A stretch of DNA of 64,000 nt from Phormidium sp. OSCR (GTDB lineage: Bacteria; Cyanobacteriota; Cyanobacteriia; Cyanobacteriales; Geitlerinemataceae): positions 4,392 to 68,391 of the forward strand of contig LJZT01000003.1 in assembly GCA_001314905.1 (NCBI GenBank), given 5' to 3'. The position numbers were made by a program, and so were the translations under genes. The notes beneath the pieces were generated by a model. That model was not told the DNA's origin. It made no database searches and saw nothing but the letters and a program-made list of their open reading frames with translations. Below, one piece after another: positions 1,229-44,292 of the stretch. Numbering within the stretch: position 1 is the stretch's first letter; each line of letters starts with the position of its first letter.

Positions 1229-1319
1229 CCGCCCTTCGGGCACCCCTCCCGGTCGGGGATTTTGGTCGGGGTTCACGTTCAATAATCATCGCCGTTGACG
1301 GGTATTGGAGAGGTCAGGT

Positions 1320-3599
1320 ATGAAACGTCGTTATTTTCTTCAGGGGGCTGGTGGGGCGTTGGGGGCGATCGCCCTCAGTCAGTGGGACCTCGCTCGACAA
1401 GGCGATCGCCTCGGCCATCTCCTCGCTCAACCCACACCCCGCAAATTAGCCCTCCTGGTGGGCATCAACCGCTATCCCCTGGGCATTTCTCCCCTACGAG
1501 GCTGTGTTACGGATGTGGAGATGCAGCGGCAGTTACTGGTGCATCGCTTTGGCTTTAATCCCCAGGATATTCTCACCCTCACCGATGAAAACGCCACCCG
1601 AGAGAATCTCTTAACGGCTTTTGAGTCGCACCTGATTGACCAGGCTCAACCGGGCGATATCGTGGTGTTTCACTTCTCGGGTCATGGGGCCTTGGTCCGT
1701 GACCCTGACCCGATTCCTCTGCCCCAAGACCCTCGCTATCAGGGGGTTCAGGGCTATAACGGAACCCTGGTTCCCTATGATGGTCGCCTTAATCCCCAGG
1801 CCACTGAGGTCAACGATATTATGGGCAAAACCCTGTTTCTGCTCATGTCAGCCCTGAAGACGGACCAAGTGACGGTGATGCTCGATAGTTGCCATTCTGG
1901 GGGCGGAACCCGAGGGGATATCCGCTTCCGCGCCATTGAATCTCGCTTCGGTGCGGGCTATTCTGACCCCAGTGAGCAAGAATTGATGACTCAAGAGACC
2001 TGGATGAGTCGTCTTGACTTGTCTCCGGCGGAGTTGAAACAGCGACGAACTCAAGGTATCGCCAAAGGGGTGGCCATTGGCTCGGCTCAAGCTAATCAAC
2101 TGGCGGCCGATGCCTCCTTTGGCCGTGGTTCGGGTCGCTTCTTCGCCGGGGCCTTTACCTACGGCGTGACTCGCTATTTGTGGCAACAGCCGGGAAGTTT
2201 GCCCCTAGAACGGGTGTTTGTGGATTTATCTCGGAGTGCGCGGGATGTGGCTAATAGTTCCGGGATTCAGCAGGCTCCCGTGTTTGCTGTTGCACCGGGG
2301 AGTGATCACGACCAACAACCCCTCTATTTTCTCACCCCGCCAACCCCACCAGCGGAAGCCGTTGTCTTGGCAGAGGAGAATGGTGAAATCAGTTTCTGGC
2401 TGGGGGGGGTGTCCTCCCAGAGTTTGGAGGCCTTTGAGGAAGGGGCCGTGTTTGCAGCCATTGATGCTCAAGGGCAGGAGCTGGCGCAGATTGAACAGAC
2501 GCGACGGGAGGGGTTACGGGGCTATGGCGTTGTCCAGGGTGAGGCGCGATCGCTCCCTCAGGCGGGACTGCTGCTGCGGGAACGGGTGCGAGGGGTTCCC
2601 CCAGATTTGAGCCTGCGTCTGGGACTCGACCCCTCCTTAGCAGATGACCTCAATGAAATGCGATCGCTCCTCCAACAGATTCGACAAGTTGACCCCGTCC
2701 CCCTCGACAGCGGCGAAACCCCCCACTTTCTCATCGGCCGCATGACTCGCATCGCCCAAGCGGCCGCATTTGAACAAGGCTCACGCGACATCGCCGCACT
2801 CGCAAGCATTGGACTGTTTACCCGAGGCCTGATTCCTATTCCCCAAAGCTTCGGCCAACCCAACGAATCCATCGCCGCCGCCGCCAACCGTCTCGTTCCC
2901 CGCTTTCAACTGCTCCTGGCGGGACAGATTCTCGGCTCAGTCCTCAACAGTGACACCTCCAACCTCAACTTAGAGGTTCAAGTCGAAGTGGCCCAAAGCA
3001 ATCAGACCCTGGCCCGTGGCGGGACTCGCGGCGGTCGCGATTTAGTGGTTCAACAGCGAGAGCATGACCTCAATAGTCTCCCCTCTGGGTCAGAAGTGCT
3101 GATTCAGGTGACCAATCACGAAGATCGCGATCTCTATGTCAGCCTCCTGGCCATTGGCAGTAGTGGTCGTATCACCGTCCTCTATCCCAATGATTGGGAT
3201 GCCCCAGAAGAAGCGGCTCGCCTGGTCTCAGGTCAATCCTTAACCGCTCCTGAGCATGAGGGACACCGCAACACCCAACGGGACTATTGCCGCAATCCCA
3301 GTGAGGAATTTCATCTCTGTCTCACCGGCCGTGGCTATGTGGAAATCCTGACCATTGCTAGTACGCGCCCCCTGCGGGAGGCCCTGCGCGTCATTGCCCG
3401 CATTGCGGCTGATACTGGCATTGCCCGCCGCGCACCTCTCTCCTTGGGGGATGAGGATTCTCTGAATGTGGTGGAGACGTTGCTTGGGGATATCGATCGC
3501 CATACCCGAGGAGATATTGAGGTTCGTACCACCCGCAATGCCGTAGATGTGAATCAGATGGCCGCCTTATCCACCATGATTGAAATTATTGACCCCTGA
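1320..3599 (+). CDS. Secreted orthocaspase (caspase-family protease) with C-terminal DUF4384-like domain
   Basis: 759 residues from ATG 1320, chosen over the in-frame TTG at 1305 because GGAGAGG lies 6 bases upstream. The N-terminus MKRRYFLQGAGGALGA resembles a twin-arginine signal peptide, so export is likely. The caspase-like p20 domain (about residues 40-330) has LALLVGINRY, catalytic His122 in HFSGHG and Cys191 in MLDSCHSGGG. The segment around residues 590-720 (LIQVTNHEDRDLYVSLL, ITVLYPN, YVEILTIAS) fits DUF4384, often attached to bacterial caspases. Family knowledge: orthocaspases cleave after basic residues. The substrate and any role in cell death are unknown. It follows a CHAT protease gene in the same direction. 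Confidence 0.9.
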   Translation: MKRRYFLQGAGGALGAIALSQWDLARQGDRLGHLLAQPTPRKLALLVGINRYPLGISPLRGCVTDVEMQRQLLVHRFGFNPQDILTLTDENATRENLLTAFESHLIDQAQPGDIVVFHFSGHGALVRDPDPIPLPQDPRYQGVQGYNGTLVPYDGRLNPQATEVNDIMGKTLFLLMSALKTDQVTVMLDSCHSGGGTRGDIRFRAIESRFGAGYSDPSEQELMTQETWMSRLDLSPAELKQRRTQGIAKGVAIGSAQANQLAADASFGRGSGRFFAGAFTYGVTRYLWQQPGSLPLERVFVDLSRSARDVANSSGIQQAPVFAVAPGSDHDQQPLYFLTPPTPPAEAVVLAEENGEISFWLGGVSSQSLEAFEEGAVFAAIDAQGQELAQIEQTRREGLRGYGVVQGEARSLPQAGLLLRERVRGVPPDLSLRLGLDPSLADDLNEMRSLLQQIRQVDPVPLDSGETPHFLIGRMTRIAQAAAFEQGSRDIAALASIGLFTRGLIPIPQSFGQPNESIAAAANRLVPRFQLLLAGQILGSVLNSDTSNLNLEVQVEVAQSNQTLARGGTRGGRDLVVQQREHDLNSLPSGSEVLIQVTNHEDRDLYVSLLAIGSSGRITVLYPNDWDAPEEAARLVSGQSLTAPEHEGHRNTQRDYCRNPSEEFHLCLTGRGYVEILTIASTRPLREALRVIARIAADTGIARRAPLSLGDEDSLNVVETLLGDIDRHTRGDIEVRTTRNAVDVNQMAALSTMIEIIDP

Positions 3600-31000: not shown

Positions 31001-32002
31001 ATGCACGTTACCTTTCAAATTCTGCGCCAAACTCGCGATAACGCTCCCCACTTGCAAACCTATCACCTCGATGTTGACCCCAGTGAGACGATTCTCACCT
31101 GTCTCGATCGCATCAAATGGGAACATGATGGCACTCTCGGCTATCGCAAAAACTGCCGTAACACCATCTGTGGCAGTTGTTCGATGCGGATTAACGGCCG
31201 TTCGACTCTGGCCTGTAAAGAAAACGTCGGCGCAGAATTAGCCCGGTTGCGACAAATTCATGGGCTATCAGATGAGGACATCCCAGCGATGACCATTGCC
31301 CCCATGGGGAATATGCCGGTGATTAAGGATTTGGTGGTGGATATGCGCAAATTCTGGGATAACCTGGATGCTGTAGATCCTTATGTGAGTACCCAGGCCC
31401 GGCAGATTCCCGAACGGGAGTTTTCCCAATCGCCTCAGGAACGGGAAAAACTCAGTCATAGTGGTAACTGTATTCTCTGCGGGGCCTGTTACTCGGAATG
31501 TAACGCCGTGGAGGTGAACCCGGATTTTGTCGGTCCCCACGCTTTGGCGAAGGCCCAGCGGATGGTTGATGATAGCCGGGACGATCGCACGGAGGCCCGT
31601 GTGGACCAATATGAACAGGGAACGGCTGGAGTTTGGGGCTGTACTCGTTGTTATTACTGTAATTCAGTTTGCCCGATGGAGGTGGCCCCCCTCGATCGCA
31701 TTGGTGAAGTTAAGCAAGCAATTCTCTCGCGCCGTGATGCGAACGCCAGTCGGGCGGTGCGTCACCGGAAAACTCTGGTGGAGTTGGTACGAGATGGGGG
31801 TTGGGTGGATGAACGCAAGTTTGGCGTGCAAGTGGTGGGCAATTATTTCCGGGATTTGCGCGGTTTGTTGAGTTTGGCGCCTCTGGGGTTACGGATGTTG
31901 GCCTGTGGCAAGTTTCCTCTGCGGTTTGAGAAGTCGGAGGGAACCGAGGAGGTGCGATCGCTCATTGATTCGGTGCGGGAGTTGGAGGCGCAGAATCGTT
32001 AG
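31001..32002 (+). CDS. sdhB: Succinate dehydrogenase/fumarate reductase iron-sulfur subunit
   Basis: 333 residues. The 2Fe-2S ferredoxin domain has CRNTICGSCSMRINGR plus a further Cys in STLACKENVG. The alpha-helical domain carries CILCGACYSECNAVEV and CTRCYYCNSVCPMEV for the 4Fe-4S and 3Fe-4S clusters. It moves electrons from the flavoprotein SdhA to quinone. No sdhA or membrane subunit lies nearby, as is common in cyanobacteria. The C-terminal ~100 residues exceed the shortest family members. Confidence 0.95.
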   Translation: MHVTFQILRQTRDNAPHLQTYHLDVDPSETILTCLDRIKWEHDGTLGYRKNCRNTICGSCSMRINGRSTLACKENVGAELARLRQIHGLSDEDIPAMTIAPMGNMPVIKDLVVDMRKFWDNLDAVDPYVSTQARQIPEREFSQSPQEREKLSHSGNCILCGACYSECNAVEVNPDFVGPHALAKAQRMVDDSRDDRTEARVDQYEQGTAGVWGCTRCYYCNSVCPMEVAPLDRIGEVKQAILSRRDANASRAVRHRKTLVELVRDGGWVDERKFGVQVVGNYFRDLRGLLSLAPLGLRMLACGKFPLRFEKSEGTEEVRSLIDSVRELEAQNR

Positions 32003-32402
32003 GGGGAACCCCGTCGGGGCAGAACCCACTCCTAGCCTCTCGGGTGGAGGCGATATTCTAAGCCCTGGCGGGGATGTCCTCTAGCTCGTAACCCTTGTGT
32101 CATGGGGGTATGGGGGCTTCTGGGGACAAGGGGCTAGGTGTCGACTTTAATGTAAAGTTTTGTACAAGGAGTCGCGTTCGTCGGAAAATCCTAGAAATAA
32201 GCGGGAAATGAGGATTTTAGATTTTCTTAAGGAAAGAAATGGTTGACAGGTCTTGGGAAAGCTTGTATCTTTAAGTAGTGCGCTAAAGCTGATGTTTTCA
32301 GTTGCCTCTCTGAGCCTCAGAATCAGGATGTAACAGAATGTTAAGTTGGTTCGCGCGATCGCACCTTGAAAGCTGGATATGGTAAGGGTTTCAAACCTAT
32401 AG
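32003..32402 (+). promoter_or_regulatory. CRISPR leader region
   Basis: These 400 bases separate sdhB from the first repeat and hold no gene. The first ~150 bases are GC-rich with a small CCCC/GGGG hairpin. From about 32150 the sequence becomes A/T-rich and carries a sigma70-like promoter, as expected of a leader. The assignment as leader rests on this and on repeat polarity. Confidence 0.65.
32243..32271 (+). promoter_or_regulatory. Candidate pre-crRNA promoter
   Basis: A perfect -35 TTGACA (32243-32248) and -10 TATCTT (32266-32271) are separated by 17 bases. Transcription would start near 32278 and run into the array 125 bases later. Confidence 0.6.
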
Positions 32403-35400
32403 GTCTTTCCCTATCTTTTCCCCGCAAGGGGACGGAAACCTTGAGAAGTATCTGGCGTAGCATCTTGCGATTGACGTCTTTCCCTATCTTTTCCCCGCAA
32501 GGGGACGGAAACAACCTAAACCCGAACCGGAAATGGAGGCTGCAAAGCCCCAGGTCTTTCCCTATCTTTTCCCCGCAAGGGGACGGAAACTTCCGTTTCC
32601 GTTGTTGGATCCACGGGGTTTCCAACGTCTTTCCCTATCTTTTCCCCGCAAGGGGACGGAAACCTTGGAGGAGGGGGTAAGTCTCGAATTCCTCTCCCCA
32701 GAGGTCTTTCCCTATCTTTTCCCCGCAAGGGGACGGAAACGCCGATGCCCTCAACTCCACTTCCTCCTCGGGGGTGAGGTCTTTCCCTATCTTTTCCCCG
32801 CAAGGGGACGGAAACATAGTCCCAATCGACCCGGACTCACTGCAAGCCGAAGTCTTTCCCTATCTTTTCCCCGCAAGGGGACGGAAACAAAGACGATGAT
32901 TTGTTGCTAGAAATGGCGCGGTCACCCTATGTCTTTCCCTATCTTTTCCCCGCAAGGGGACGGAAACAACAGTTCCAGCAGTTTCTCGGTCTCCTTCTCC
33001 ACCCGTCTTTCCCTATCTTTTCCCCGCAAGGGGACGGAAACTTTATAGAGATAGAGGCTCTCGGCCCGCACTCTAACCGTTGTCTTTCCCTATCTTTTCC
33101 CCGCAAGGGGACGGAAACGCCGGTCCCAGTTTATGGAGACGGGGAGCCGCTTCTGCAACGTCTTTCCCTATCTTTTCCCCGCAAGGGGACGGAAACGCTA
33201 TCCTGGTACTCAAAACCCTTTATCTAAGACTTATAGGGTCTTTCCCTATCTTTTCCCCGCAAGGGGACGGAAACCTTTTGTTTTCTGTCACATATTTTCA
33301 CCTGTCTGTCTGATTGTCTTTCCCTATCTTTTCCCCGCAAGGGGACGGAAACAACTTATCTCCAAAGCCGGTATTTATCCCGGTGTCTGGTCTTTCCCTA
33401 TCTTTTCCCCGCAAGGGGACGGAAACCCCTTCTTCATGAGTTTCCGTACCCGTCGTTTGTCCGGTCTTTCCCTATCTTTTCCCCGCAAGGGGACGGAAAC
33501 TCCCAGTCTATGAGAGTGTGGTACTAGTCGCTAACAATGTCTTTCCCTATCTTTTCCCCGCAAGGGGACGGAAACCTGGAGGTCCAAGCTTCCCACGATA
33601 TGTGGGAAGGAGGGTCTTTCCCTATCTTTTCCCCGCAAGGGGACGGAAACAAAGAAAGTGGTAGCCCGCAAGGCGGCCATCCGCGAAAGTCTTTCCCTAT
33701 CTTTTCCCCGCAAGGGGACGGAAACACATTTTTATAGTTTAATGGTTGCAACAGATTCTAAACCGTCTTTCCCTATCTTTTCCCCGCAAGGGGACGGAAA
33801 CGCGGGACATGTCAATTCCCAGCTCCTCGGCTGAGGTCTTTCCCTATCTTTTCCCCGCAAGGGGACGGAAACGCACCCCAGAGATCGCAATCCTCAATCA
33901 GGGGTCGGAGGTTGTCTTTCCCTATCTTTTCCCCGCAAGGGGACGGAAACAAGGGGTCCTCCGCAAGGAGACCTACCACCAGCAAATGGTCGTCTTTCCC
34001 TATCTTTTCCCCGCAAGGGGACGGAAACCTTCGACGAGGAGGAGGACCTCGATTTCGATGAGGTGAGGTCTTTCCCTATCTTTTCCCCGCAAGGGGACGG
34101 AAACTATGCACCCGAACAGCATCCCCGGGTTCGACTTTTTGTCTTTCCCTATCTTTTCCCCGCAAGGGGACGGAAACAAATGGAGAACCATCCACACCGC
34201 CGACAAGGCGGCGAAGGGGAGTCTTTCCCTATCTTTTCCCCGCAAGGGGACGGAAACAAGGGTTATCACCCTTTACGGCTTTGAAGTAACTCTCATAGTC
34301 TTTCCCTATCTTTTCCCCGCAAGGGGACGGAAACACCCCGGCCAGGCTGTTGAACCAGCCGGAGTCATTGTCTTTCCCTATCTTTTCCCCGCAAGGGGAC
34401 GGAAACACTTCCTCTTCGGCTGTGTAGAGGAAATTATCCTCGTACGTCTTTCCCTATCTTTTCCCCGCAAGGGGACGGAAACCCCGATCCGGGTGAACGG
34501 TTTGCAAACCATTTCACCGTCTTTCCCTATCTTTTCCCCGCAAGGGGACGGAAACATTGGATGATGGGGGTTTGATTATGCTCGGGTCCCCGAGACGTCT
34601 TTCCCTATCTTTTCCCCGCAAGGGGACGGAAACTTACCCTTTTCCTGAACGACGATCTCCACGGGAGCCACCCGCAGAGGTCTTTCCCTATCTTTTCCCC
34701 GCAAGGGGACGGAAACATCGAGAACGAGAGCCTCCCCGGTTGGGTTATCCTCGGTGTCTTTCCCTATCTTTTCCCCGCAAGGGGACGGAAACGATTCGTT
34801 CGCGGTACGCACCGCCCCCATCCCCATCGTGGGTCTTTCCCTATCTTTTCCCCGCAAGGGGACGGAAACGATATAAAACATCAGCGTTTCCTTCGCGGCG
34901 GTGGTGTCTTTCCCTATCTTTTCCCCGCAAGGGGACGGAAACCCGGGCCCGGGAAGATGGTATGGGGAGCTCAATTTCTACATGTCTTTCCCTATCTTTT
35001 CCCCGCAAGGGGACGGAAACTGAAGTAAGTAGAGACACTCCCAGGTGTCTTTTTATTGTCAAAAGTCTTTCCCTATCTTTTCCCCGCAAGGGGACGGAAA
35101 CCTCTTGACGAATATGAACTAGGGATGATAAGTTGGGTCTTTCCCTATCTTTTCCCCGCAAGGGGACGGAAACTACTCCGAGAACTATATCGACCCCACA
35201 GAGTCGATGAAGTCTTTCCCTATCTTTTCCCCGCAAGGGGACGGAAACTCTTATTTATAAATGATAAATTTTATTTTTATAAAAAGTCTTTCCCTATCTT
35301 TTCCCCGCAAGGGGACGGAAACTTATATATATATAGGTATACCCCCCTACCCCCTTGCCGTCTTTCCCTATCTTTTCCCCGCAAGGGGACGGAAACCTTC

Positions 35401-38400
35401 AACTACCGTATTACATACCGGTAGATTAGCTTCATGGCTAGTCTTTCCCTATCTTTTCCCCGCAAGGGGACGGAAACGACGAAGAGCAAGGAAAAGAACT
35501 AGACTTAGAAGAGGTCTTTCCCTATCTTTTCCCCGCAAGGGGACGGAAACAATCGGTAGTTGTAGCTACCGATTACCCCCAATAAAGTCTTTCCCTATCT
35601 TTTCCCCGCAAGGGGACGGAAACTATTCTACTTCAGTTGGACACTCAACTGGAAGAGATGGGAGTCTTTCCCTATCTTTTCCCCGCAAGGGGACGGAAAC
35701 TTTGGGCCCGGATCTGGGGGGTTCCTACACCCCTAGAGTCTTTCCCTATCTTTTCCCCGCAAGGGGACGGAAACGAAGTGCAGTGCGAGCACTACGAGCG
35801 AGACGTAGTTTATAGTCTTTCCCTATCTTTTCCCCGCAAGGGGACGGAAACGCTTCATCAATCAACTCACTTAACAGGAAATCGTGAGCAAGTCTTTCCC
35901 TATCTTTTCCCCGCAAGGGGACGGAAACAGTCTTCCGCTTCTATCTGCACCTCCCAAACTTGGAAGTCTTTCCCTATCTTTTCCCCGCAAGGGGACGGAA
36001 ACCTTGTTTTGCAGTTTCGCGATCATGTTTTTAACACCGTTCGTCTTTCCCTATCTTTTCCCCGCAAGGGGACGGAAACTCACACGGGAGGGGTTGACCT
36101 CATTCAAAGAAAGCTAACCCTCGTCTTTCCCTATCTTTTCCCCGCAAGGGGACGGAAACCAGGAGAATGCCCTGTAGGGGGGCGGGGAGCCCCTTGGAGT
36201 CTTTCCCTATCTTTTCCCCGCAAGGGGACGGAAACCGCAGGGAAACCTGTCCCTCGTCATCTGCAGTAATAAGAATGTCTTTCCCTATCTTTTCCCCGCA
36301 AGGGGACGGAAACCCACCCCCAGAACAAAGGGGTCCTGGTCAAGTGCTGGGTCTTTCCCTATCTTTTCCCCGCAAGGGGACGGAAACAATATTTGTAAGA
36401 TGGCTATAGAAGAAGGTATGGAAGTCTTTCCCTATCTTTTCCCCGCAAGGGGACGGAAACTATGGGATTTACTGGAAAAGCAGCAGCTTTATGGAAAGTC
36501 TTTCCCTATCTTTTCCCCGCAAGGGGACGGAAACTTTGGAGTTGCTCTTGAGCCTCCTCCATATTCTCACGTCTTTCCCTATCTTTTCCCCGCAAGGGGA
36601 CGGAAACACGAAGACCCCCGTGTCTCCCACCATTCCTAACATGAGGGTCTTTCCCTATCTTTTCCCCGCAAGGGGACGGAAACAAATTAACTAATTAAAG
36701 AGTAGTATAGCCATAACTACGTTCTTTCCCTATCTTTTCCCCGCAAGGGGACGGAAACTCTTCAACAGTGAATTCCCGCATCCCCCGAACGAGCTCCAGA
36801 CGGTTCTTTCCCTATCTTTTCCCCGCAAGGGGACGGAAACTTTCAAGTCCTCCTGTTCCAGGAGGGTGAAGTGGGGTTCGTCTTTCCCTATCTTTTCCCC
36901 GCAAGGGGACGGAAACTCCTTGCCCAGCCAGAGCAGAGGAGATTTCCAAAGTCTTTCCCTATCTTTTCCCCGCAAGGGGACGGAAACGAGTGCTAGACAC
37001 CCTTGTCGAAGATCATCCCATTCTACGTCTTTCCCTATCTTTTCCCCGCAAGGGGACGGAAACCTCCTGAGTGAATAGAGGATTAGCCTCCGATACGACC
37101 CTTTCGTCTTTCCCTATCTTTTCCCCGCAAGGGGACGGAAACGAGGATAAACCGTTCACGAGCGTGAGCGACCTAAACGAGTCTTTCCCTATCTTTTCCC
37201 CGCAAGGGGACGGAAACTTCCCTGAAACCGAATGGTCGACTGCTACGGGGGATGAACGTCTTTCCCTATCTTTTCCCCGCAAGGGGACGGAAACTTCTTT
37301 GAACGGGAGGCCCCCGAAGATGAGTTTGAGGTCTTTCCCTATCTTTTCCCCGCAAGGGGACGGAAACCTAATCAACAACGGTTAGAGTGCGGGCCGAGAG
37401 CTTCTATCGTGTCTTTCCCTATCTTTTCCCCGCAAGGGGACGGAAACCTCCAACGTCACCCGTAGTTGGATGTTGTATATCATAGTCTTTCCCTATCTTT
37501 TCCCCGCAAGGGGACGGAAACGGAGGCGAAAGCTGAAGCGGTGGACCTGGAAACCTGGCAGTCTTTCCCTATCTTTTCCCCGCAAGGGGACGGAAACCAT
37601 CCCAAGCCACCGATCCATCGACCGTCCCCATGCGGTCTTTCCCTATCTTTTCCCCGCAAGGGGACGGAAACCACGGTCACGCTCTGGGACCATGGCTGTG
37701 AGGTAGAGCCAGTTGTGTCTTTCCCTATCTTTTCCCCGCAAGGGGACGGAAACTTGACTCGGTGTTGGGGGGCCCGTCCCATGTCGAACCCGTCTTTCCC
37801 TATCTTTTCCCCGCAAGGGGACGGAAACCTAGTCTCTTTATTTTTAGATCATCGCTTCAATCTCGTCTTTCCCTATCTTTTCCCCGCAAGGGGACGGAAA
37901 CGTTTCAGTTTCCCTTTATCGTTTAAGACGATCGTGACTCCGTCTTTCCCTATCTTTTCCCCGCAAGGGGACGGAAACGGGGTTGACGCTGAGTTGCAGC
38001 GTCCCTAGCTTCCGGGGGGTCTTTCCCTATCTTTTCCCCGCAAGGGGACGGAAACTTGTCTGGGTCGGGGACTTCCCGCCCGGACTCGAAGCCTGTCTTT
38101 CCCTATCTTTTCCCCGCAAGGGGACGGAAACTTCGTCTAATTCTTTCTCTAGCCGGAAGGTAAAGTTTTTCTCAGGTCTTTCCCTATCTTTTCCCCGCAA
38201 GGGGACGGAAACGCTAGATAATTTGGGCTGCGAGCTGTTCTCAATTGTCACAGTCTTTCCCTATCTTTTCCCCGCAAGGGGACGGAAACAGACGAGTGGC
38301 CTGACAGCTTGCCAGGACTCGGGGTTCGGTCTTTCCCTATCTTTTCCCCGCAAGGGGACGGAAACAAGAAGAGATTCTAAACCTTCTTAAAGAGCTCAAT

Positions 38401-40120
38401 CTTTGTCTTTCCCTATCTTTTCCCCGCAAGGGGACGGAAACGCCGCGCTACGTGAAACCCTACGGGGTGAATCGAGCGGGGTCTTTCCCTATCTTTTCCC
38501 CGCAAGGGGACGGAAACGCGCGTCGCAAGGCGCGCAAAGCCCAAGCCCAAGTCTTTCCCTATCTTTTCCCCGCAAGGGGACGGAAACATGAGGTTAAGGG
38601 GGATTAATGCTTGAGACGTCCTCAGGTCTTTCCCTATCTTTTCCCCGCAAGGGGACGGAAACTTCCCAGACTGCCTCCTTGTCCCAAACCTCTTCATTGT
38701 CTTTCCCTATCTTTTCCCCGCAAGGGGACGGAAACAAAGATTCTCCCCATGGAGTTCTAGACGATAAGGGTTATGTCTTTCCCTATCTTTTCCCCGCAAG
38801 GGGACGGAAACAACTCGTCCTCGGTAAACGAGACTTTCCTCATAACGACCCCAAGGTCTTTCCCTATCTTTTCCCCGCAAGGGGACGGAAACATACCCGT
38901 AGTACAGGTCTAGTAGTGAACCTACGCTACTGGTCTTTCCCTATCTTTTCCCCGCAAGGGGACGGAAACCTCGTCCGACCATCGGACTCAATGCGGGACT
39001 TCTACGCAGTCTTTCCCTATCTTTTCCCCGCAAGGGGACGGAAACCTCCTCAAGCGGATCCTCCATTACTTTGGACATTCCGTCTTTCCCTATCTTTTCC
39101 CCGCAAGGGGACGGAAACGCATCCTGACTATGAAGATGATAGTTGGGGTGAAGTCGAAGAGGTCTTTCCCTATCTTTTCCCCGCAAGGGGACGGAAACCT
39201 CGACAAGGGGGTAACCCCTTTTGCTTCAAGAGCCATTGTCTTTCCCTATCTTTTCCCCGCAAGGGGACGGAAACGTCTTCATTAAGTCTAAACAAGGTAG
39301 TCAAAATACTAATGTCTTTCCCTATCTTTTCCCCGCAAGGGGACGGAAACAAAACGTTTGGACTATATCCTTTTTTAATGAAGAGTTGGAGTCTTTCCCT
39401 ATCTTTTCCCCGCAAGGGGACGGAAACTACGCCTTTAAGCATTTCCTTGATACCTTCCGCGTCTTCTTGTCTTTCCCTATCTTTTCCCCGCAAGGGGACG
39501 GAAACTGCTCAAAACCCCTGCCGGGATGCAGGGGGCATGGTACGCCATGTCTTTCCCTATCTTTTCCCCGCAAGGGGACGGAAACAAGCGAAGGGGGGTA
39601 CGCTCAAGGGCTTGGAAACGGTGAGTCTTTCCCTATCTTTTCCCCGCAAGGGGACGGAAACACGACGTACTTGCGTCCGCCGTATTGGAGGACGCCCCCC
39701 GTCTTTCCCTATCTTTTCCCCGCAAGGGGACGGAAACTTTCATCCCGTTCTTATCTGGGAAGAACTCACGTCCCTCCTTGTCTTTCCCTATCTTTTCCCC
39801 GCAAGGGGACGGAAACGATAACCAGGTTGTTAGCGTGGAGGTCATTGTGAATAACTCGTCTTTCCCTATCTTTTCCCCGCAAGGGGACGGAAACTCAGGG
39901 AAAGTCTCCTTCAAGCTCTCCCAAGCTTGAAGGGTCTTTCCCTATCTTTTCCCCGCAAGGGGACGGAAACTTTATTAAATCTAGTGCTAAGCACTAAATC
40001 CTAAAAGCGTCTTTCCCTATCTTTTCCCCGCAAGGGGACGGAAACGTCGAAGACCTGTTGGAGCCGAAGGGGCTGTTGAGCCAGTCTTTCCCTATCTTTT
40101 CCCCGCAAGGGGACGGAAAC
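32403..40120 (+). CRISPR. CRISPR array, 102 repeats and 101 spacers, no cas genes in window
   Basis: The 37-base repeat starts GTCTTTCCC, has a central CCCC-GCAA-GGGG hairpin and ends ACGGAAAC. Manual counting gives 102 copies, first at 32403 and last at 40084, with spacers of about 33-46 bases (mean about 39). One hundred repeats look identical. The two at 36721 and 36803 have one extra T near the start. Both terminal repeats are intact. The GAAAC-type 3' end and the left-side promoter suggest rightward transcription with an 8-base ACGGAAAC crRNA tag. Such repeats accompany type I-D and III systems in cyanobacteria, but the type cannot be set without cas genes. No duplicated spacer was noticed. 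Confidence 0.98.
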
Positions 40121-40222
40121 ATTTCACCTCAAATAAACACAATGAACGATCGCATTACAACTAAAAAACAAGATTATAAATGATTGGAACCAAAATACTT
40201 TTAGAGAGATAAATAATTTGTT

Positions 40223-40492
40223 ATGGAAATTTTATATGTCAGTAATGGGAAATATCGCGAAGTAGTTTTGTATAGAAATCCACCAGAAAACCCTGCTTGG
40301 ATAGTTTTAGGGGAAATTGCCCAGTCTGAATACGAAAATGTTTTTGGCACAGGAAGTATGTTCGGTAGAGATATCTGTTGGGTGGCTTTAAACCCCCAAC
40401 GTGGTGATTTTTTTCAGCCATATCTACTGTCAGATACATTGTTCAATACTAAGGACGAAGCGACAATGTTTCTGTTAGATTTATTAGACTAA
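40223..40492 (+). CDS. Small protein of unknown function
   Basis: 89 residues, acidic, soluble. Sequence such as YVSNGKYREVVLYRNPPENP and TKDEATMFLLDLLD resembles no family I know. It begins 102 bases after the last CRISPR repeat, in an A/T-rich stretch unlike the rest of the window. It is not recognisable as a cas gene. Confidence 0.6.
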   Translation: MEILYVSNGKYREVVLYRNPPENPAWIVLGEIAQSEYENVFGTGSMFGRDICWVALNPQRGDFFQPYLLSDTLFNTKDEATMFLLDLLD

Positions 40493-40557
40493 AGTCAACC
40501 AACCAAGTTGATAGTGATACGATTTTAAAAAATACTTGCTATACGTTAACACCGGGG

Positions 40558-40602
40558 AGGGCGAACAGCACCTCGACTATCGCTCGCTGAATACCGTTCG
40601 CC
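40558..40602. repeat. 8-bp inverted repeat GGGCGAAC/GTTCGCCC
   Basis: The arms are at 40558-40565 and 40595-40602. This G/C-rich arm pair recurs between genes in many cyanobacterial genomes. The remaining gap 40493-40734 contains no convincing gene; a 72-codon minus frame there has no coding character. Confidence 0.6.
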
Positions 40603-40734
40603 CTTATAGACATTGATGCTACGACGTCTGAAAGTCGGTATGTTCTTGATGAACAGGGAGCGAAGGCAACAAAAATTGTTCCACTTCTGCACAAAGACAC
40701 ATCCCTGGGGAACCAACCAACATCCAATTTAATA

Positions 40735-41343
40735 TTACTCGCCAATTCTTTGACCACGAGTTTGAGTAACCGCAGGTTCCTGAGGCAAATTTGCCCGAGT
40801 TAGATGTAACTCATAGCCAAGCCAAGCCAACATTCCACCCATCACCGCAACCGTAATCAAGAGGGTACTCGTGAGTAACTGTACCTGTCCAGATAACCGC
40901 TCAACCTCCTGATTGCCCCGTTCAACAACAACCAAATTTTTCTGAAGTTGTTGCTCCGGTTGTAACGAACTCGATGAAACAGCAGCGACTTCGTTTTTTA
41001 CTTCGTTGTTTTGAGACTGCGTTTGCTTCTCAAACTCCACCAAAGAACGGAGCCAATCAGCAATTAACAACGGACAATTTGCCTTAAACCAACGCAGTCC
41101 AAAAAAGAGGAAAACAGGCTTAGAGACCTTAGTGACCGGTCGAAATACACCCCGAAGTATGCGACTGCGAAGTTGACGGTAGTAGATATTTTCCACACCC
41201 ATATCATAAAGGGCCGCCAAGACAATTTTTGCCGTGGCCTCTTCCCGCTCAAACAAATGCTCCAAAGTTAGAAGCATCTCATCCATACTTTTGTGTTCTA
41301 CCGCCTCTCGCGGTGAGTTCGGTTGATTTGACTGGGTATCCAT
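40735..41343 (-). CDS. Tail-anchored membrane protein, unknown function
   Basis: 202 residues. A largely helical, charged N-terminal part (SMDEMLLTLEHLFEREEATA) is followed by a Gln/Glu-rich linker (about 110-155). A single membrane segment lies near the C-terminus (about 158-182, TSTLLITVAVMGGMLAWLGY). No family is recognised. Confidence 0.7.
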   Translation of the reverse strand: MDTQSNQPNSPREAVEHKSMDEMLLTLEHLFEREEATAKIVLAALYDMGVENIYYRQLRSRILRGVFRPVTKVSKPVFLFFGLRWFKANCPLLIADWLRSLVEFEKQTQSQNNEVKNEVAAVSSSSLQPEQQLQKNLVVVERGNQEVERLSGQVQLLTSTLLITVAVMGGMLAWLGYELHLTRANLPQEPAVTQTRGQRIGE

Positions 41344-41445: not shown

Positions 41446-44202
41446 TCAAACTAGATAAGGCGAGTCGATCGCCTCGATGTCCCATAACCCCGCATCGAGT
41501 AGCGCCTGATAGAGAATCACCGCCACCTCACCGCGAGTTGCATCCCGATTAGGGTTGAGGCGATCGCCGTCAGGATAATTCACCACCAAGCCGCGCTGCA
41601 CAGCCATCGCCACCGCCGGTTTCGCCGCCGTAGCAATCTCTTGATGATCGCGAAATTGCTCCAACCTCGCCACATCCGCGTCCCCCAAATTCTGGCCACT
41701 CACCAACGCCAACCAAATCGAGACTCGCTGCACATTCAACTGAGGCGCAAAGCGATCGCCCCCCACCCCCGACATAAAGCCACCACGAGCCACCTGTTGA
41801 ATCGCCTCAGCCGCCCAAAACCCCGGAGAAACATCCCGGAAAGCGATCGCCTCGCGCACTGGCGGCGGATTAAACGCCGTCGCCAACAACGTCGCAAACG
41901 CCGCCCGGGATAGAGGCGCATCGGGGCGAAAACTACCATCAGGATAGCCATTCAGCAATCCCTTCCTCATCAACACCGCCACAAACGGCGCAGTCCAATG
42001 ATCATCCAAATCCGTAAAAGCCGGCGCCGCCAGAGTATCCGCCGTAATCACATAGGGTGACTCCCTCGGCGGCACCTTGCCCAACTGCACCAACGCCTGA
42101 TACACCGTCACCGCCACTTCCGCCCGTGTCATAGACGCTTGAGGCCGTAAGCGGCGACGATTAGGGTAATTGGCCACCAACTCCGCCACCGTCGCTTGAG
42201 CGATCGCCGTTTGAGCATAACTGGGAATCTGCTTGCGATCGCCATAAAACGACAGCACCTCCGTCTCCGCCTGAGGAGCTAACCCCAAGCCATTCACAAT
42301 CGCCACCCAGGCCTGAGTCCGCGTCACCGAGTCCTCAGGGCGAAAACTGCCATTGGGAAACCCCGCCATAAACCCCATTTGGTTCGCCTTACGAATGGCC
42401 GAATAGCCCCAAAACCCCGCCGAGACATCTAAAAACACCTGCGGCTCACGCACTGAGGGAACCTCAAAGGCCTTCGCCAAAATCGCCGCAAAACTAGCCC
42501 GCGTCAGCGGTGCATCCGGTAAAAAGCGGCGATTTCCCACCCCGGAAATCACCTCCCGTTCAAACAAATCCTCAATAAATCCTTCCGCCCAATGGCCCGT
42601 AATATCCTGTAACTCTCCTGGGGGAGACGGTTCCACCTCAGCCGGGGCTAACACCGTTTCAAACTCCTGAAGATACTGAGCCGCCTCCGTTTGAGAAATC
42701 CCATAAACCTTAGAAAGCTGACCCCGTTGAGCCAACACCTGACGCACCTCAGAATTGGCAATCTCCGAGAGTTGCCGTCCCTGATGCAACGCCAAAGCCG
42801 CCGCAATGCCTAACCCCTGAGCCACCCCGACATTGTATTCAACAATCCGGCCCGCCGAAGAGGCATAACCGGGAAAATCCGACGCGGGACTCACCACCGC
42901 CAAATTGGCAACGGATTTGACTTGAGCATGATCAATCCCGATGTTAAACACCGGTTTAGCATGAATACTGACACTCTCATAGCCCTTGCCCCGTGCTTTC
43001 TGACCTAATCCCTCAATGCCGCCGCGTACATCGAAATGATAGCCAAAGGTGCCCAAGGCCTCACCGGCATCCACTCCACCGTTGAGCATTTTCGCACCAC
43101 TGAGGGGACTGACTGCCCCACTGATATTCCCAGCATGACGAATATAGAGTTCCTCAGCGGGGCGCACCTCTGAAGCGCCAAAACTCTCCATAAACCAACG
43201 TCGCACCTGCTCAAATTCCCCTAACATCGCCTCCGTTGGACGGGCGTTCTTGCGGGCGAGGGCCTCGGCTTCGGAACCGGTAACAAACCACAAGAGGGAG
43301 TTCCAAGAGAGGCGGTTCCCCGGCAAAATGGCCACATTGCCATTGTCGAGGAGAAAGCCACTCTTTTTGAGGGAAAAGGCCCGGTTGCGGCGAGCATGGT
43401 AGCCAATGCTGAGGGCGCGCGATCGCACATCAATAAAATCGCGATCGCTATAGAGTTTCAACGGTCGTCCTTGAGCGTCTCTTAGGGAGTTCTCTAAAAA
43501 CTTAGCAATGCCAGGATCTCCCCCAGAAGCCAGTTTCAATAATTGCTGTCCCATCGAACTTTGGGAATCGAGGAGATTGCGTAAATAGTAATCCTCCACC
43601 TCCCGGACTTTGGCGACACTCACCCCCTCCGTTTCAAAACACAGCGTCACCGGCAGTTCCGCCTCCGGGAGTCCGAAGGTAGCAAATCCTTGTAATTTCT
43701 TAACTCCAGCGGCTTGGGCCAGTTCAGCATTCACTGTAGCGTCAATGAACTGGCCCGCCAAAAAGGTCTCACCGCGCGTCAAGCGGATACCACTGAGGCG
43801 CGATCGCGTTTTCAACACCTCAGCGATCTCAGCCTGTCCCGTCATTAAGGCCCCCACCTCCCCCAACATGGCTCGTAGGGCAGCATTCGCCCGCAACGGA
43901 TCGAGAGCAATAAACTGGACTTGGGCGCGTTTGAGAAATTCTTGATAAATAGCCGGAGGATCACCAAATGTATCTAATCCATGACGGCGACGGACATCGG
44001 CAGGAATGCCACTGCGATCGAGATAGGAGAGTCCGCCGCGCACTAGATGTCCGCCAATGAGTCCCGTCGCGGGGCCTTTGAGCATCAGCAGCGATCGCGG
44101 CCAATCCCCCGTCCGCTGGCGCAACTCACGAGCCGCCGTCACTAACGCTAAAACACCGGGAACTTCATCACCGAAAACAATCAGATCAAAGGTGCGAACC
44201 AT
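41446..44202 (-). CDS. FAD-dependent oxidoreductase fused to six SLH motifs
   Basis: 918 residues from ATG 44202. The upstream extension to 44292 abuts tRNA-Arg and has no homology. The N-terminal ~530 residues resemble the FAD_oxidored group: FDLIVFGDEVPGVLALVTAA, GLIGGHLVRGGLSYLDRSG and, later, GLGIAAALALHQGRQLSEI. The C-terminal ~380 residues hold two SLH triplets, with repeats such as FLPDAPLTRASFAAILAKAF, FRPEDSVTRTQAWVAI and FRPDAPLSRAAFATLLATAF. No signal peptide is visible, which is odd because SLH motifs normally act outside the cytoplasmic membrane. Function unknown. Confidence 0.88.
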   Translation of the reverse strand: MVRTFDLIVFGDEVPGVLALVTAARELRQRTGDWPRSLLMLKGPATGLIGGHLVRGGLSYLDRSGIPADVRRRHGLDTFGDPPAIYQEFLKRAQVQFIALDPLRANAALRAMLGEVGALMTGQAEIAEVLKTRSRLSGIRLTRGETFLAGQFIDATVNAELAQAAGVKKLQGFATFGLPEAELPVTLCFETEGVSVAKVREVEDYYLRNLLDSQSSMGQQLLKLASGGDPGIAKFLENSLRDAQGRPLKLYSDRDFIDVRSRALSIGYHARRNRAFSLKKSGFLLDNGNVAILPGNRLSWNSLLWFVTGSEAEALARKNARPTEAMLGEFEQVRRWFMESFGASEVRPAEELYIRHAGNISGAVSPLSGAKMLNGGVDAGEALGTFGYHFDVRGGIEGLGQKARGKGYESVSIHAKPVFNIGIDHAQVKSVANLAVVSPASDFPGYASSAGRIVEYNVGVAQGLGIAAALALHQGRQLSEIANSEVRQVLAQRGQLSKVYGISQTEAAQYLQEFETVLAPAEVEPSPPGELQDITGHWAEGFIEDLFEREVISGVGNRRFLPDAPLTRASFAAILAKAFEVPSVREPQVFLDVSAGFWGYSAIRKANQMGFMAGFPNGSFRPEDSVTRTQAWVAIVNGLGLAPQAETEVLSFYGDRKQIPSYAQTAIAQATVAELVANYPNRRRLRPQASMTRAEVAVTVYQALVQLGKVPPRESPYVITADTLAAPAFTDLDDHWTAPFVAVLMRKGLLNGYPDGSFRPDAPLSRAAFATLLATAFNPPPVREAIAFRDVSPGFWAAEAIQQVARGGFMSGVGGDRFAPQLNVQRVSIWLALVSGQNLGDADVARLEQFRDHQEIATAAKPAVAMAVQRGLVVNYPDGDRLNPNRDATRGEVAVILYQALLDAGLWDIEAIDSPYLV

Positions 44203-44292
44203 AATCAGATCACCATACAGGGGAGAGACCTCCAGTGTATAGCAATCCCCTGACACCATCGCCGCTGCCGGGTTGCTAATTCGATTCATCAA

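Follow-up and report, generated by a model that had tools for sequence, protein, structure and literature searches.

Among the closest described systems to the array studied here is the type III-Dv locus of Synechocystis sp. PCC 6803, of which the repeat, the spacer size range (34-46 nt) and the gene content have been printed (PMC11026444) and the effector complex has been solved (8s9t). It is well established that orphan arrays can be used in trans, and this has been reported for a similar Phormidium (PMC10715143). Described there, in Candidatus Phormidium alkaliphilum, are several type III and I-D loci together with orphan arrays, for which use in trans is suggested, besides a 'hybrid' type III locus that is complete and fits III-Dv; the accessible part of that report ties none of these orphan arrays to a particular system through its repeat and leader (PMC10715143). 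Phormidium yuhuli AB48, with a chromosome of 4,747,469 bp and a plasmid of 51,599 bp (PMC9933718), is in one genus with our source genome.

The window, the whole stretch of 64,000 nt analysed here, covers bases 4392-68391 of contig C166 (125,405 bp) in a 4.69 Mb cyanobacterial genome of 187 contigs. On its forward strand, an array of 102 repeats of 37 nt and 101 spacers extends from the start of the first repeat at 32403 to the end of the last repeat at 40120. The sequence GTCTTTCCCTATCTTTTCCCCGCAAGGGGACGGAAAC is kept over all 37 nt in 100 of the 102 repeats, and both end repeats are perfect. The spacers (33-46 nt, mean 50% G+C) are all different. These counts bear out the original prediction of 102 nearly perfect repeats with intact ends and about 101 unique-looking spacers, and such near-identical repeats with unique spacers of similar length identify 32403-40120 as a CRISPR array. 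A control search with the reversed pattern found 0 repeat copies genome-wide, so the array is not due to chance. The crRNA sense is the + strand, and the newest spacers lie on the left. The two variant repeats, 58 (36721-36758, +) and 59 (36803-36840, +), reach 38 nt by one extra T (GTTCTTT...). Because these adjacent repeats carry the identical extra T, the variant probably has a single origin, followed by one copying or duplication event.

On C166, 36.8 kb separate the array from the left contig end and 80.9 kb from the right end. Profiles for RAMP (PF03787), Cas1 (TIGR00287) and Cas6 (PF10040), the families covered by our genome-wide cas search, matched other contigs and gave no match on C166. 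Meanwhile, tblastn with the nine Cas and Csx1 proteins of a second contig, C81, against the window and the examined parts of C166 returned no match. The absence of cas genes, first claimed for 32 kb to the left and 24 kb to the right, holds for the window and, by these profiles, for C166. The original prediction had also considered a cas operon sitting directly beyond the window; this can be dismissed over a distance of at least 37 kb to one side of the array and 81 kb to the other. By these searches, no cas genes lie within tens of kb of 32403-40120, and the label 'orphan' holds.

The genes around the array are chromosomal housekeeping and surface genes, among them a succinate dehydrogenase-like iron-sulfur subunit, EPSP synthase, DAHP synthase and an acetyl-CoA carboxylase subunit. 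The left flank is formed by the chromosomal iron-sulfur subunit gene (31001-32002, +; Fer2_3 and Fer4, succinate dehydrogenase B-like), and the right flank by a chromosomal gene for an FAD oxidoreductase with S-layer homology domains (41446-44292, −). These two genes are approximately 270-440 kb apart in three complete relatives, so the orphan array sits where gene order differs. Far to the left, positions 1305-3599 of the window encode a large caspase-domain protein (Peptidase_C14).

Searching the whole genome for the orphan repeat at up to 3 mismatches revealed only one other site, in reverse orientation on the 25 kb contig C81. Here, a sister array of 81 repeats is followed by a degenerate terminal copy, and its repeat version GTCTTTTCC has one base changed, leaving 36 of 37 nt identical to the orphan repeat. 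From the leader of the sister array, the genes follow in the order Cas2, Cas1, then Cas6, Cas10, Cas7-5-11, Cas7-2x, Csx19, Cas7-insertion and Csx1. Cas6 carries a C-terminal HTH, Cas10 retains the GGDD motif, and Csx1 is a CARF-HEPN protein. Each of the five effectors finds its best match in the corresponding chain of 8s9t (E=7e-272, 1.7e-42, 1.5e-175, 2.8e-178 and 7.7e-278), and the III-Dv effector set is complete (cas10, cas7-cas5-cas11, cas7-2x, csx19, cas7-insertion). The proposed search of the genome for cas operons and arrays with the same repeat has thereby turned up a sister array beside Cas1, Cas2, Cas6 and a III-Dv effector. The C81 repeat, a homologous leader and the complete III-Dv locus fit the original expectation that the array is served in trans or has its cas genes outside.

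Compared with the Synechocystis III-Dv repeat, the orphan repeat has 27 of 37 identities, including the CTTTTCCCCG..AGGGGAC.GAAAC core; shuffled repeats gave a mean of 9.7 and a maximum of 20, and other repeats found in the genome gave 14-18. The two systems share this repeat core and the spacer size range, and Cas6, the adaptation genes and all five effectors are common to Synechocystis and C81. On the other hand, the Synechocystis array lies at the cas operon, whereas the orphan array is a second, distant one with a separate leader lineage.

An intact leader (32149-32402, +) is located to the left of the orphan array. It contains a predicted promoter, TTGACA-17-TATCTT (32243-32271, +), which coincides in position with the TTGACA conserved among cas-linked leaders. 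The leader-repeat junction GGTTTCAAACCTATAG (32387-32402, +) adjoins the first repeat in cas-linked leaders too, with one change in the leader that precedes a P. yuhuli plasmid array, and is likely to be part of the Cas1-Cas2 integration site. Identity with the C81 leader is 75% over 227 nt including the repeat and about 64% in a 260-nt alignment, and the cas-linked III-Dv leaders of the genus give about 63-66% over 260 nt. The closest leader is that of the P. yuhuli plasmid array (80% identity over 254 nt). In the leader tree, the orphan and plasmid leaders pair with full support, and the six cas-linked leaders of the genus stand separately. Judged by these alignments and the tree, the orphan and C81 leaders are homologous and belong to separate lineages. 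Two leader/repeat lineages thus exist side by side: all seven genus genomes examined have the first at the cas locus, and the second occurs in arrays away from it. The orphan array, unlike the III-Dv locus, does not occur in all seven.

Taken together, the orphan array is very probably a second, chromosomal array of the type III-Dv system of this genome, served in trans. The assignment is based on the sequence relations of repeat (36/37 to C81) and leader, on gene content and on shared targets, and it makes the C81 III-Dv locus the best candidate to acquire, process and use the orphan spacers. Following the steps known from III-Dv biochemistry (PMC11026444), the leader promoter would transcribe the array rightwards, and the HTH-tailed Cas6 of C81 would cut in the repeat to leave the 8-nt 5' handle ACGGAAAC. 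The crRNAs would then load into a complex of Cas10, Cas7-5-11, Cas7-2x, Csx19 and Cas7-insertion, which would bind and cut invader RNA and signal to Csx1 by cyclic oligoadenylate. Cas1-Cas2 from the locus next to the sister array would insert new spacers at the leader end. The conserved junction motif and the overlapping spacers point indirectly to such acquisition by the C81 Cas1-Cas2, which is less secure because the orphan leader is of a distinct lineage.

Spacer overlaps connect the orphan array, all on its + strand, with other arrays. Spacer 29 (34556-34596) has 31 of 33 nt in common with C81 spacer 54, shifted by 5 nt and directed at the same target family, and spacer 26 (34335-34369) overlaps C81 spacer 59 exactly over 18 nt. 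Spacer 54 (36461-36497) and spacer 5 of a sister species' III-Dv array (G004) coincide exactly over 35 nt, at an offset of 2 nt. Within the orphan array, spacer 9 (33042-33081) and spacer 66 (37368-37410) overlap on opposite strands (31/32 nt). As a control for chance, 20 shuffles of all spacers yielded 4 pairs in total at E<0.001. Because the overlaps sit at shifted positions, the arrays sampled the same invaders independently, not by copying one another. Array duplication as the source of the sharing was rejected, as the overlaps are shifted and no spacer is identical between arrays.

Matching the spacers to phage and plasmid databases, as originally suggested, yielded no protospacer source. 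The orphan and C81 spacers had no match among 50,697 phage records, and a search of 2.9 million viral contigs with five exact core patterns from the overlapping spacers was likewise without a match. Plasmid matches were mostly long, multi-piece and in cyanobacteria, consistent with related repeats. Four weak single-piece plasmid matches (E=0.6) were in unrelated organisms and were set aside. Against 14 family genomes, spacers 1-88 (spacers 89-101 were left out) matched only CRISPR arrays, and no self-targeting was seen.

Related arrays occur in two relatives. The P. yuhuli AB48 plasmid array (NZ_CP098612.1, 11.7-13.3 kb) has about 15 repeats, which share the version GTCTTTCCC with the orphan array but have TACC where the orphan repeat has TATC. 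That plasmid encodes a Cas6 with 80% identity to its C81 counterpart, and no III-Dv effector is annotated on it. P. willei BDU 130791 (LSZA01000054.1) has an array at the orthologous site. The trailer of the orphan array (40121-40757, +), matched as a unit only in this strain among the genus genomes, stands there (88%) directly behind the last repeat. The four P. willei repeats seen are of the cas-linked version, however, and the spacers differ from those of the orphan array; the leader of this P. willei array was not found. We tentatively consider a further reading, which is possible and stays well short of probable: the orphan array might represent a mobile 'satellite array' lineage, with its own leader and repeat version but lacking effector genes, that passes back and forth between plasmids and chromosome in the genus and taps the resident III-Dv machinery. 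Such a lineage would travel with a III-Dv-type Cas6 on the P. yuhuli plasmid, and in our genome it would possibly have taken the place of a cas-type array such as P. willei still has at this site.

Two sequence features around these arrays are recorded here. Trailer segment 40515-40640 (GGGCGAAC...GTTCGCCC) is a dispersed repeat with dozens of occurrences in the genus, including near the C81 array's own trailer. The P. yuhuli plasmid carries, between 11683 and 32094 (NZ_CP098612.1), short arrays of four repeat types and a lone Cas6, with no annotated effector.

The genome also contains two further type III loci. Contig C2 (L061 3662-12550) carries a III-A locus with Cas10, Csm3, Csm4, Csm5, Cas6 and CARF-RelE, free of arrays in the 17 kb examined. 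Contig C13 (L060 7753-19179) carries a type III cluster with Cas10, several RAMPs and a Csx1-like protein, with no Cas6 or array in the 20 kb examined. A further cas6 lies on contig C32.

Type III effectors can take crRNAs made for other systems, and the III-A and III-B loci of the genome could also use crRNAs of the orphan array. That the array mainly feeds one of these two loci, perhaps sharing crRNAs with III-Dv, is nevertheless unlikely. The reading gains from the combination of Csm1/3/4/5 with an own Cas6 on C2, a Cas10/RAMP cluster lacking Cas6 on C13, and the lack of arrays in the 17-20 kb examined around both. Yet the match of the orphan repeat and leader is specifically to the III-Dv array, the Cas6 proteins of C2 and C81 are just 30% identical, and arrays on contigs outside those examined may serve C2 and C13.

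Service by the III-Dv locus also has to be weighed against a silent relic, an old array severed from its cas genes that has lost expression and extension. Stop triplets in the orphan spacers show no excess on the crRNA strand over the opposite strand (154 versus 167, p=0.42), and hence no coding-strand bias; in the C81 spacers (L049 2140-8550), they are fewer on the opposite strand (157 versus 110, p=0.0016). Such a missing stop-triplet excess, unlike the C81 array, would suit a relic, as would the spacers of a sister species, reported to be static in culture (PMC10715143). However, the 100 identical repeats include both ends, and leader, promoter and junction are retained. Matching cas genes exist in the genome, and the orphan spacers overlap those of two other arrays. 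We therefore regard a relic as very unlikely. As an exploratory lead only, the C81 spacers look as if they were antisense to genes; three cas-linked arrays of relatives show a stop-triplet bias in the same direction as C81, which is not significant.

An assembly artefact, in which the array truly adjoins the C81 locus and was misjoined on C166, is scarcely credible: the assembly is a draft of 187 contigs and assemblies can break at long repeats, but the orphan and C81 arrays differ in repeat version, leader and trailer and have no identical spacer, unique sequence flanks the orphan array on both sides, and the P. willei array is joined to the same trailer.

The orphan array is real but a largely ordinary second array, and nothing in these results overturns current understanding. 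Its novelty is modest and lies in a leader/repeat lineage of its own, to which both a chromosomal orphan array and a plasmid array belong; a large orphan array is also assigned by sequence to a specific effector. The plasmid link suggests one route by which orphan arrays spread. With one III-Dv system and two long arrays in one cell, distinguished by diagnostic repeat and leader differences, the case is tractable and suits asking how a type III system that has one array nearby and another far away splits crRNA loading and the uptake of new spacers between them. Meanwhile, in the sister array on C81, the 11 newest, leader-proximal repeats (L049 7809-8550) end in T and not C, which would alter the last base of the crRNA handle.
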